64,000 nucleotides of DNA from Terriglobia bacterium (lineage in GTDB: Bacteria > Acidobacteriota > Terriglobia > Acidiferrales > UBA7541). Position numbers and translations under genes: made by a program. The notes under the pieces are model-generated. The model was given only the letters and a program-made list of their open reading frames with translations, searched no databases and was not told the origin of the DNA. Numbering within the stretch: position 1 is the first letter of the stretch; each line of letters starts with the position of its first letter. Where the stretch lies: positions 33,982 to 97,981 of the forward strand of contig JAIQGC010000004.1 in the NCBI GenBank assembly GCA_020072805.1, read 5' to 3'. Below are positions 37,288 through 41,223 of this stretch, piece by piece.

Positions 37288-38565
37288 GTGAATCCGTTGA
37301 AGAGGACTGATGCAAAACGGGTACGGGGGATCAGTTTGCGCGCATGCACGCTCCTGGCGCTCTGCGTGATGGCCGCAGCGTCGCTGCGCGGGCAGCAGGC
37401 GGCGGATTGGCAGGAGCAGGTGAAGGGCCTGGTGGCGCAGCAGCATTTGGACGAAGCGCTGCGGATTACGGAGAAGCGACTGGAAACCGCGCCGCAAGAC
37501 GTGGAAGCGCGGGGATGGCGGGCGCGTCTGCTGACGTGGGCAAATCGCCTTCCGGAAGCGGAGGCGGACTACCGTCTGGCGCTGGCCGGTGCGCCGAAAG
37601 ACACGGACCTGATGAGCGGGCTGGCGGTAGTGCTGACGCGAGAGCAGCGCTTTGACGATGCGCTCAAGGTGCTGACCGAAGCGAAGGCCTTGGACCCCCG
37701 GCGAAGCGACATTCGGGTGCAACGGGGGCGGGCGCTGCGGGCCTTGGGGCGCTACCCGGAGGCGCGCAAGGAGTTTGCGGAGGCGGCGCGGCTGGACCCC
37801 AAGGATGAGGAGGCCCGCGCCGGCTTGAAATCGATTCCCGTGGAGCCGCGGCATCTGCTACGAGCGGGCAACGACACGGATTTTTTCAACTACACGGATA
37901 CGGCACAGACGCAGACCGTCAGCTTGGATTCGCGCTGGACGCAAAGGTGGTCCACGAGCTTCGCCGGCGGCGCTTGGCAGCGTTTTGGAGTGAATGCGGG
38001 GAAGTTTACGGCGGGCGCAACTTTCCATTTCAATCCGCGCACTTCGCTGACCGCCGGAGCCGCGGCGGCCAACGATCAGGCCGTCATCCCGCACAGCGAG
38101 GTTTTCTTCGAACTGGACCGCGGCATTCATCTGAGCGACCATGCCGCACTGCGCGGGATTGATGCCGCCTACCGCCAGCACTGGTTCTGGTATCAGGGCG
38201 CGCACGTGCTGACCATCATGCCCTCGCTGCTCTTCTACCTGCCGTGCGACTGGACGTTTCAACTGAGCGGAATCGCGGCGCGCAGCGGCTTTGCGGGCAT
38301 CGCGCCGGAATGGCGCCCTTCGGGAGTAGGCAAGCTGGGCATCCCCCTGGCTGAAAAAGTGACGGGCAACCTGTTTTTCGCGGTGGGCGCGGAGAATTTC
38401 GCCCAAGTGGACCAGCTGGGAAGCTTTTCCGCGCGGACCTATGGCGGCGGCCTGAAAGTTCAATTTACGCCGCGGCAGGACGTGAGCGGGGTGGTCTCCT
38501 ATCAGAGCCGCACGCAGAGCCGCACACAAACGAGTTTTGGACTGAGTTATGGGCTGCGTTTCTAA
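37288..38565 (+). CDS. YaiO-like outer-membrane barrel with TPR repeats
   Basis: Protein of 425 residues. After a signal peptide (about 18-35), tetratricopeptide repeats fill about residues 40-190 (for example AEADYRLALAGAPKDTDLMSGLAVVL). The remaining 230 residues alternate polar and aromatic residues, as in beta-barrels, and end in SYGLRF with a terminal Phe. This TPR-plus-barrel plan is that of the YaiO family. GTG start with a strong GAGGAGAG upstream. In E. coli, yaiO neighbours a family-2 glycosyltransferase, as here two genes downstream. The likely role is export or modification of a polysaccharide through the outer membrane. Confidence 0.82.
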   Translation: MNPLKRTDAKRVRGISLRACTLLALCVMAAASLRGQQAADWQEQVKGLVAQQHLDEALRITEKRLETAPQDVEARGWRARLLTWANRLPEAEADYRLALAGAPKDTDLMSGLAVVLTREQRFDDALKVLTEAKALDPRRSDIRVQRGRALRALGRYPEARKEFAEAARLDPKDEEARAGLKSIPVEPRHLLRAGNDTDFFNYTDTAQTQTVSLDSRWTQRWSTSFAGGAWQRFGVNAGKFTAGATFHFNPRTSLTAGAAAANDQAVIPHSEVFFELDRGIHLSDHAALRGIDAAYRQHWFWYQGAHVLTIMPSLLFYLPCDWTFQLSGIAARSGFAGIAPEWRPSGVGKLGIPLAEKVTGNLFFAVGAENFAQVDQLGSFSARTYGGGLKVQFTPRQDVSGVVSYQSRTQSRTQTSFGLSYGLRF

Positions 38566-39805
38566 CCTGCCGCTGATGGCCGTGTTGATTTCGCCGGGCA
38601 CGCCGGGGCGTTTTGTGCTCCAGGCGATTGCAGTTACGTTCGTGGGCATCGCGCTGCTTCTGCTCTTCATTCTGGGGAGGCGCGGGCTGCGCCGGCGCTA
38701 TTTTCACCGCAGGGATCTGCGGGTTTTCGCGCTGCGCAAGGATTGGGAAGGAATTCTGAGCGGGTCGGTGCCGCCGGAAAGCTGGCGCCGGCATTCGCTG
38801 GACAGCGAGATCGTCGAGGAGATGCTTTTCGAGGGGATGGAAGCGGCGCATGCCGCCGGACAGTGGGAAGAAGCTGTCCGGCTGTTGAATGTCCTGCGCA
38901 CCAGCGGATTGCTCTCCACGCGGATGCATGAAGCCAGCGAATACGGCGGATGGAGAAAGCGCCGGGCGCTGGTGGCGCTGGGACGGACGCGTGCGCCGGA
39001 AGTGGTTCCGGTGCTGGCCGGCGCGCTCGAGGACGAGGACCCGGAAACGCGCGTCGCCGCCGTGCGCGGCCTGGGTGGCACGGGATTGGCCGCGGCGGCA
39101 ACCGAGATGATGGACCGCGTGGTGGGGCGCGGATTGAGCACGCCGGGGCTGACGCTGCAGAATTCGCTGCTGCACTGCTGCCAGGGGCGTCCGGAAATAT
39201 TGCAGCCGTACCTGCGGCAGGCGCAGGGGGGCGCGCGGGAAATGCTCTCGCGCGTGCTGGGTGAACTGGCCACCCCGGACATGGAAGAGGATATCTTGTT
39301 GCTGGCGGCGGACCCGCTGCCGGAAGTGCGGGCTTCGGCGGCGCGCGCGCTGGGTGTGGCGCGGCCGGTGGCGGCGCTCGAGCTTCTGGGCGAACTGGTG
39401 AAGGACAAGGAGTGGTTCGTGCGCCTGCGGGCGGTGGTGGCCCTGGGCTCCATCGAGGATGCCCGGGTCATTCCCATTCTGATCGAGTCGCTCTGCGACG
39501 AGAACCGTTATGTGCGGCTGCGCGCCGCGGGTGCGCTGGCCCATATGGGGCCGCGGCTCGAGCAGATCGTCGAAAAAGTGATCGAGACGCGCGACCGCTT
39601 CGCCCTGCATGCGATTATTTCGGAAATCGAGCGCGCCGGCGGCATCGCCCACCTCTTTGGCGCCATTTCCGATCCCAACCGCCGGGAAGAGGCCACCGCC
39701 ACACTGATGCAAGCGCTGAAAGCGGGGCAGGAGCAGATGCGCACCGCGGCGCGGGGTGAGTTACGGCCGGTGACAGCGCTGAAACCGGGAAAGGCCGGCT
39801 CCTGA
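38549..39805 (+). CDS. Membrane-anchored HEAT-repeat protein
   Basis: Protein of 418 residues. One membrane segment (about 22-43) is followed by a basic loop and about seven HEAT/PBS-lyase-like helical repeats (about 135-390), recognisable as (E/D)xxVRxxAAxALG units such as DPLPEVRASAARALG and DENRYVRLRAAGALAHMG. HEAT repeats act as protein-binding scaffolds. The start overlaps the YaiO-like gene by 17 bases; an ATG at 38576 would avoid this. Its stop overlaps the GT2 start. Placed between an outer-membrane barrel and an inner-membrane synthase, it could couple the two or regulate the synthase. Confidence 0.82.
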   Translation: MGCVSNLPLMAVLISPGTPGRFVLQAIAVTFVGIALLLLFILGRRGLRRRYFHRRDLRVFALRKDWEGILSGSVPPESWRRHSLDSEIVEEMLFEGMEAAHAAGQWEEAVRLLNVLRTSGLLSTRMHEASEYGGWRKRRALVALGRTRAPEVVPVLAGALEDEDPETRVAAVRGLGGTGLAAAATEMMDRVVGRGLSTPGLTLQNSLLHCCQGRPEILQPYLRQAQGGAREMLSRVLGELATPDMEEDILLLAADPLPEVRASAARALGVARPVAALELLGELVKDKEWFVRLRAVVALGSIEDARVIPILIESLCDENRYVRLRAAGALAHMGPRLEQIVEKVIETRDRFALHAIISEIERAGGIAHLFGAISDPNRREEATATLMQALKAGQEQMRTAARGELRPVTALKPGKAGS

Positions 39806-41223
39806 TGCTGCACCGGTTCATCTCCATCTCCAACATCACCCTATTCGTCTATTACCTCGCCTCCAATCTGATCTATCTGGCGCTGCTGATTATCGCCCTG
39901 TTCGCCAGCCTGCGCCACCGCCGGCGCCTGGCCAGCATCCGCCTCGAGCGTATGCGCACCTCGCCCCTGGCTCCGCCCATCACCGTGCTGGCCCCGGCGC
40001 ACAACGAGGAAAAATCGATCATTGAATCGGCGCGCGGGCTGCTCGCGCTCGATTATCCCGAACTCGAACTGATCATCATCAACGACGGTTCCGCCGACCG
40101 AACCCTGGAAGTCCTCCGCGAGCATTTCCAATTGCGTCCCGCCGACGTGCTCTACCTCCCCGAGCTGCACTCGGCCCCGGTGCGCGGCGTCTATATGAGC
40201 CAGAACGAGCCGCGCCTGCTGGTGGTGGACAAGGAGCCCGGGGGGAACAAGGCGGACGCGGTGAATGCCGGGCTGAACGCCGCCACCAAGCCTTATGTGT
40301 GCGTGGTGGACGCCGACTCCATCCTCGAACGCGATTCGCTCCTGCGCATCATGGTGCCCATCCTGGCCGATCCGCGGCGCGTCGTCGCCGCCGGGGGCAT
40401 TGTGCGCGTGCTCAACGGCTCGCGCGTGCGCGACGGCCAGCTGACCGAAGTGCGCCTGCCCAAGGGCTGGCTGGAAGTGCTCCAGGTGATCGAATACCTG
40501 CGCGCCTTCCTGATCGGGCGGGAGGCCTGGGCGGCGGGCAACATGCTCAACATTATTTCGGGAGCGTTCGGGATTTTCCGGCGCGACCTGGTGCGCGCCG
40601 TGGGCGGCTACCGCACCAATGCCATCGGCGAGGATTTCGATCTGGTGACGCGGATGCACCGCTACCTGCTCGAACAGAAGATGGATTACCGCATCAGCTT
40701 CGTGCCCGACCCGGTGTGCTGGACCGAGGTGCCTTCCGACCTGCGCTCGCTCGCGCGCCAGCGGGCCCGCTGGCACAAGGGCCTGCTCGACGTGCTCTGG
40801 CCCAACCGCGACATGCTTTTCCGGCGCACCTACGGCCGGCTGGGCTCCATCGGCCTGCCCTACATGTGGATCTTCGAGCTGCTGGCGCCGGTGGTCGAAC
40901 TGGTGGGCTACACCACGATCATTCTCGCGGCGGTCCTGGGAGTGCTCAGCAGGGAATTTTTCATTCAGTTTCTGATCTACGGCTACGCCTTCGGTACCAT
41001 GATCTCCATCGGTGCGGTGATGCAGGAAGAGATCACCTACAAACGCTATAACGACTGGCGGGACGTGATCCGCCTGGTGCTCTACTGCTTCTTCGAACAT
41101 TTCCCTTATCGGCAGATGTATCTGGTCTGGCGGCTGCAGGGCTTCTGGCAGTACTTCCGCAAGGACTTTGTGTGGCGGCCGATGAAGCGCATCGGCTTCC
41201 ATGGCGCCGATACCGGCAAATAG
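39805..41223 (+). CDS. Processive GT2 polysaccharide synthase
   Basis: Inner-membrane glycosyltransferase of 472 residues. Membrane segments lie at about 12-35 and, as three or more, after residue 350. The GT-A catalytic core includes APAHNEE, INDGSADRT, DADS (169-172), GED (275-277) and the QRARW motif (319-323). The D,D,D,QxxRW pattern marks processive synthases of the BcsA/NodC/PgaC type, which polymerise and move a polysaccharide across the membrane. No PilZ domain is fused, though a separate PilZ gene lies 12 kb away. The polymer is unknown. Confidence 0.9.
   Translation: MLHRFISISNITLFVYYLASNLIYLALLIIALFASLRHRRRLASIRLERMRTSPLAPPITVLAPAHNEEKSIIESARGLLALDYPELELIIINDGSADRTLEVLREHFQLRPADVLYLPELHSAPVRGVYMSQNEPRLLVVDKEPGGNKADAVNAGLNAATKPYVCVVDADSILERDSLLRIMVPILADPRRVVAAGGIVRVLNGSRVRDGQLTEVRLPKGWLEVLQVIEYLRAFLIGREAWAAGNMLNIISGAFGIFRRDLVRAVGGYRTNAIGEDFDLVTRMHRYLLEQKMDYRISFVPDPVCWTEVPSDLRSLARQRARWHKGLLDVLWPNRDMLFRRTYGRLGSIGLPYMWIFELLAPVVELVGYTTIILAAVLGVLSREFFIQFLIYGYAFGTMISIGAVMQEEITYKRYNDWRDVIRLVLYCFFEHFPYRQMYLVWRLQGFWQYFRKDFVWRPMKRIGFHGADTGK

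Follow-up and report, generated by a model that had tools for sequence, protein, structure and literature searches.

Within a 64,000-nucleotide stretch of a Terriglobia bacterium genome (assembly GCA_020072805.1, contig JAIQGC010000004.1; hereafter the window), we analyzed a module of just three overlapping genes that, judging from the predicted proteins, looks like a system for polysaccharide synthesis and export. All three are open reading frames (ORFs) on the + strand. Gene A (37288-38565, GTG start) encodes a 425-aa protein with a TPR domain and an outer-membrane barrel, gene B (38549-39805) a 418-aa HEAT protein with one transmembrane (TM) helix, and gene C (39805-41223) a 472-aa inner-membrane glycosyltransferase family 2 (GT2) synthase. 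The overlap is 17 nt between genes A and B, and 1 nt between genes B and C. A preliminary description of the locus had already read it as a TPR barrel, a membrane-anchored HEAT protein, and a QxxRW GT2, which the ORFs, Pfam, AlphaFold2 (AF2) models, and sequence motifs confirmed.

Gene C matched Glyco_tranf_2_3 (9.1e-23) and carries all hallmarks of a processive GT2, with each motif intact. These comprise D94 of the NDGS motif (40084-40086), invariant in our alignment and assigned to nucleotide-sugar binding; the DxD motif, here DAD (residues 169-171, 40309-40317); the ED pair with the TED-type catalytic aspartate (residues 276-277, 40630-40635); and QRARW, the QxxRW signature of processive GT2s (residues 319-323, 40759-40773). 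The protein is also membrane-embedded, as hydrophobicity marks an N-terminal TM region at residues ~12-30 and C-terminal hydrophobic stretches at ~346-407. D169, D171, E276, D277, Q319, R320, R322, and W323 were invariant in a 13-member GT2 alignment, and ED, QR.RW, and other columns were invariant across 77 GT2s. No PilZ, MshEN, or GGDEF domain was detected by Pfam in gene B or C.

Gene B matched HEAT_2 (1.1e-27) and has a single N-terminal TM helix (residues ~19-47, nt 38603-38689), predicted to be an N-out/C-in membrane anchor. The hydrophobic core of this helix (38615-38677) is followed by the positively charged segment RRGLRRRYFHRRDLR, placed inside by the positive-inside rule, on which our topology call is based. 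After this basic stop segment comes a HEAT alpha-solenoid that reaches residue ~404 and is predicted to be cytoplasmic. AF2 modeled the protein confidently as a helical solenoid (mean pLDDT, the predicted local distance difference test, 92.9) with the TM segment inside one long helix (residues 19-64), and a fold search returned generic HEAT/ARM solenoids. In the window protein, 1 Lys/Arg residue precedes the TM helix and 8 follow it. Among the 79 homologues with a detected TM helix, Lys and Arg were clearly in excess on the HEAT side in 77, with two ties and no reversals, because of which the HEAT solenoid is predicted to be cytoplasmic. The first TM helix of the GT2 family shows the same pattern (mean Lys/Arg 0.4 before and 2.9 after), and therefore the soluble domains of both proteins should be cytoplasmic. 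A Legionella homologue has a signal-peptide-like stretch before its TM helix and therefore fits the N-out/C-in topology, as an N-out end requires. In Halosolutus, the TM part is encoded apart, by an 86-aa ORF directly before the HEAT ORF.

Gene A begins with a signal-peptide-like N-terminus (residues ~1-36), followed by a periplasmic TPR domain (residues ~41-182, nt 37408-37833; TPR_19, 4.6e-15) and a carboxyl-terminal outer-membrane beta-barrel (residues ~189-424, nt 37852-38559); its last residue is Phe. The AF2 model is of fair quality (mean pLDDT 85.9, predicted TM-score 0.60) and shows helical TPRs at residues 41-182 and then a barrel of 14 strands, a count that comes from this one model. 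The best full-length matches in a fold search were BcsC (9b8a) and PelBC (9h80), with TM-scores of 0.37-0.38, while the size of the barrel was matched by OmpG. The preliminary description had called this barrel YaiO-like. The likeness is fair, but the protein is not a called YaiO member, as both curated models score below their cut-offs (PF19413, 14.5 against 23.9; TIGR04390, 16.6 against 32). Within the gene A family, 15 of 26 barrels matched TIGR04390 at E<=1e-3, the equivalent in Idiomarina matched YaiO above the cut-off (66 bits), and NCBI names the equivalents in Mesorhizobium, Emticicia, and Legionella YaiO.

The pairing of HEAT and GT2 genes is widespread. A query of GTDB contigs with the GT2 alone gave an independent sample of 80 loci from about ten phyla, spanning Acidobacteriota, Bacteroidota and relatives, Thermoleophilia, Bacillota, Alpha- and Gammaproteobacteria, Bdellovibrio, Nitrospirota, Aquificaceae, Bipolaricaulota, and one Thermoplasmatota metagenome-assembled genome (MAG). 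A HEAT gene, called when a profile match at E<=1e-4 lay directly upstream on the same strand, was present in 77 of them. Two exceptions (L070 and L135) start at or near a contig edge. The third, L080, is the sole locus with upstream sequence and no HEAT gene, and its GT2 is broken by a deletion and a frameshift (model positions ~368-406 are missing, and the gene continues in another frame). Eight further GT2 matches in one gammaproteobacterial family also count as HEAT-paired. As a control, none of 10 PgaC-like GT2s (family-model scores 68-164), each with at least 1 kb of upstream sequence, had a HEAT gene upstream, whereas every GT2 scoring above 380 bits had one; part of the latter set was found via HEAT, while L184-L189 and L198-L205 were found via GT2. 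Of 12 distinct plasmid records, 11 also carry the pair, including three from haloarchaea. A protein named "HEAT repeat domain-containing protein" by NCBI adjoins the GT2 in records from Mesorhizobium, Erythrobacter, Haloarcula, Halosolutus, Salinirubellus, Deinococcus, Bacteroides, Devosia, Planococcus, and Legionella, and in a Paenibacillus record the HEAT gene was found with a hidden Markov model. In Emticicia, the gene at this position encodes a 289-aa "hypothetical" protein without a match to the HEAT model. The commonest spacing of the pair is a 4-nt overlap, and HEAT and GT2 distances are correlated (Spearman 0.52, n=62, 0/1000 permutations).

Two loci with a more diverged GT2 subfamily (L163 and L164; 201 and 165 bits) also adjoin a HEAT gene, from which the pairing may extend beyond the clade studied here. 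A HEAT-GT2 pair was also seen in MT836222.1 (L183), deposited as "Bacteriophage sp." from human faeces; the phage label is unverified, and the record is more likely a bacterial fragment.

A neighborhood survey, which the preliminary description had set as a refuting test, placed the HEAT gene between the other two, in the order barrel-HEAT-GT2, in every one of the 15 same-family loci whose flanks are available on either side. Of 35 genomes from the same genus, 14 have a full-length HEAT homologue (E<1e-80), as does one further genome of the family. More distant members of the class depart from this order, with the barrel behind the HEAT-GT2 pair or opposite it, but the HEAT gene stays directly upstream of the GT2. 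Across the phylum the pair is patchy, with near-full-length HEAT matches in ~21 of 149 genomes. A second HEAT-GT2 pair lies elsewhere in the same genome (contig C93, 7978-10619 of locus L039, - strand). For the barrel, the genome gave a single full-length match, that in the window. In the GT2 tree, this second copy groups with the orthologues of the genus and the window copy falls outside; the window copy is therefore an older duplicate or a transferred copy.

In monoderms and haloarchaea, the pair almost always occurs without a barrel, as seen in Actinomycetota, Bacillota, and haloarchaea. A barrel match was absent from 21 of 22 monoderm-type or archaeal HEAT-GT2 loci, the exception being L136, from a MAG labelled Clostridia. 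Many phyla have the barrel gene beyond the GT2 or not adjacent at all. Together, the predicted topology and this occurrence in monoderms and archaea indicate that the HEAT protein belongs with the GT2 and not with the outer membrane.

A gene for a stand-alone CheY-like receiver (<=150 aa) comes next upstream in 31 of 85 loci. Among Alphaproteobacteria it does so in 13 of 15 loci and among Thermoleophilia in 7 of 10, and it is found in haloarchaea as well. The receivers lie directly upstream in the same orientation and measure 117-139 aa, and therefore have no output domain; 31 of 32 retain the phospho-acceptor Asp, and histidine kinases adjoin several HEAT-GT2 loci. When distance matrices were compared by partial correlation (n=30), those of the receivers followed HEAT given GT2 (partial r 0.58, 0/2000 permutations), but did not track GT2 given HEAT (0.10, p 0.19), and the HEAT-minus-GT2 difference stayed above 0.26 when any one locus was dropped. 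As related loci are not independent, this result is no more than suggestive of receiver divergence tracking HEAT and not GT2.

The known system nearest to the module in logic is NfrA/NfrB, which makes the N4 glycan in E. coli. NfrB is an inner-membrane QxxRW GT2 with a fused MshEN domain that binds cyclic di-GMP (c-di-GMP), and NfrA is a TPR-barrel outer-membrane protein (PMC8669469, PMC8669472). Both systems combine a QxxRW GT2, a cytoplasmic regulatory part, a TPR-barrel protein, and a short gene overlap. In NfrB, however, MshEN is fused, whereas the module has no MshEN but a separate membrane-anchored HEAT protein, and CheY-like receivers in many relatives. By analogy, the HEAT protein would take the place of the NfrB regulatory domain. 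Sfz2 of stalk-forming Zetaproteobacteria, an MshEN-GT2 (PMC8250860), likewise joins an inner-membrane QxxRW GT2 to a cytoplasmic regulatory part, with MshEN where the module has HEAT.

The poly-N-acetylglucosamine (PNAG) system shares a TPR-plus-barrel protein (PgaA), the nearest NCBIfam GT2 model (PgaC), and a small TM partner of the synthase (PgaD). Gene C, however, scored 132.6 bits against PgaC TIGR03937 (cut-off 422.3), and the module has HEAT instead of PgaB or PgaD and a barrel predicted with 14 strands; the barrel of PgaA has 16. Likeness to the cellulose (BcsA/BcsB/BcsC) and Pel (PelB) systems lies in the best full-length folds of gene A, BcsC and PelBC, but at just the low TM-scores given above, and the module lacks PilZ, BcsB, PelA, and a PelD partner. 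Against the cellulose synthase model CelA TIGR03030, gene C scored 40.8 bits (cut-off 699.1). In the E. coli yaiO-yaiX-yaiP-yaiS cluster, the outer-membrane YaiO barrel likewise lies near a GT2 and a deacetylase. As the preliminary description had rightly remarked, this cluster has no HEAT gene; moreover, YaiO is a 257-aa protein without a TPR part and gave no profile match to the gene A barrel family, and YaiP scored 53 bits with the GT2 family model, against 380-780 for family members. From these comparisons, the module appears to work like PgaACD, BcsAC, or NfrBA while falling outside the tests for membership in each, and it matches none of the known PNAG, cellulose, and NfrAB systems.

The xagABC(D) operon of Xanthomonas is a glycosyltransferase-based biofilm operon, in which deletion of xagA or xagB reduces biofilm (PMC3609779). 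Identity with xagABC was dropped as a likely but unproven non-match: compared by its published relatives, xag points to the MshEN-GT2 type (PMC4643136, PMC8250860), to which the xag-like Sfz2 belongs. No description of a HEAT-GT2 module or pairing was found in the literature searched, which was open-access PMC only and does not prove priority.

We consider it reasonably probable (roughly 0.65) that the module is a synthase-dependent polysaccharide system in which the HEAT protein is a subunit at the cytoplasmic face of the GT2, gated by a receiver in many relatives, with the barrel added in diderms. On the cytoplasmic side, the GT2 would polymerize a nucleotide sugar, threading the chain through the inner membrane. 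We infer physical contact between the HEAT protein and the synthase, with its single TM helix beside the GT2 and its solenoid next to the catalytic domain, where it may serve as a regulatory docking platform comparable to the PgaD, PilZ, and MshEN modules of other synthases. The receiver encoded upstream in many relatives probably controls the synthase by docking on HEAT, with input by phosphorelay. The TPR-barrel protein of gene A, as a diderm add-on, would collect the chain in the periplasm and release it through the outer membrane. Somewhat short of even odds, and thus put forward tentatively, is the broader proposal of an undescribed class of processive synthases in bacteria and archaea, with an obligate membrane-anchored HEAT subunit, a CheY-like phospho-receiver switch in place of c-di-GMP, and an outer-membrane exporter as a diderm addition. 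For most known polysaccharide synthases with such an architecture, the switch is c-di-GMP. If true, the proposal would provide a direct route by which two-component signaling reaches the secretion of a polymer, be it in monoderms, diderms, or haloarchaea, and a function for many genes annotated just as "HEAT repeat domain-containing protein" and "glycosyltransferase family 2".

Several observations weigh against this interpretation. No receiver gene adjoins the module in the window, unlike the 31 of 85 related loci; no barrel was found beside the second HEAT-GT2 pair of this genome within the ~1.1 kb left to the contig end; and many diderm loci have no detected barrel next door. In the loci examined, no natural HEAT-GT2 fusion was found, nor any HEAT-receiver fusion. 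Co-divergence of HEAT and GT2 can reflect joint inheritance, the QxxRW and DxD motifs do not prove a polymer product, and some automatic annotation labels such GT2s glycolipid synthases. Finally, no experiment on any family member was found in the open-access PMC literature.

The best-placed alternative, although unlikely, is that HEAT is an assembly or stability chaperone of the GT2 without a regulatory role, the receiver controlling something else or transcription. Stand-alone receivers do have other known targets, and HEAT is kept where no receiver adjoins, including in the window; the tracking of HEAT rather than GT2 by receivers that lack an output domain and lie directly upstream in the same orientation argues against it. 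Less likely still, the GT2 and HEAT proteins might make a membrane glycolipid or glycosylate a protein, with the barrel serving a separate function. This would agree with pairs that lack a barrel, with a GT2 that has just one hydrophobic stretch at its N-terminus and two to three at its C-terminus, and with the automatic annotation of GT2s of this general type in iron-oxidizing bacteria as monoglucosyldiacylglycerol synthases (PMC4643136). However, QxxRW and TED-type motifs are typical of processive synthases, and the recurring partners (deacetylase, sulfatase-fold, and TPR-barrel proteins) resemble those of the PNAG, cellulose, and Nfr systems: a polysaccharide deacetylase adjoins the pair in one relative (L109), sulfatase-fold proteins in two (L115 and L102), an LTA-synthase-like protein and YaiO in Emticicia, and a nucleotide-sugar dehydrogenase and epimerases in Legionella. 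The proposal of the preliminary description that a periplasmic HEAT domain physically joins the synthase to the outer-membrane barrel, suggested by the middle position of its gene in same-family loci and by HEAT solenoids being protein-binding scaffolds, is highly improbable given the basic segment directly after the TM helix in 77 of 79 homologues, the Legionella signal-peptide-like stretch, the pairs without a barrel in organisms lacking an outer membrane, and the barrels placed beyond the GT2 or elsewhere.

The module is flanked by PNPase-like and MurA-like genes, as read from their sequences, neither of which is a polysaccharide gene. No Rfam leader or c-di-GMP riboswitch matched 5' of the module at the gathering threshold, and sub-threshold Rfam matches directly 3' of the PNPase-like gene look like chance. 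A reading as a defense system was also set aside, PADLOC having given weak HEAT matches alone.

Two further gene neighborhoods were observed among the relatives. On a plasmid of Halosolutus gelatinilyticus (L247, 3103-8427), the HEAT-GT2 pair is followed by glmS and a gene for a sugar-phosphate nucleotidyltransferase, which suggests that the polymer of this haloarchaeon contains amino sugars. Five Bacillota loci share a gene next to the pair that encodes a protein of 670-1035 aa (L117, 3356-5368; L137, 3388-5403; L145, 2850-4973; L139, 8494-11601; L180, 1752-4763). Sequence searches with this protein gave no Pfam or PDB match; it carries glycosidase-like motifs of the FASYHIYPYYPDF and VAEFGVP types, and possibly represents a novel family of glycoside hydrolases with the polymer as their substrate.

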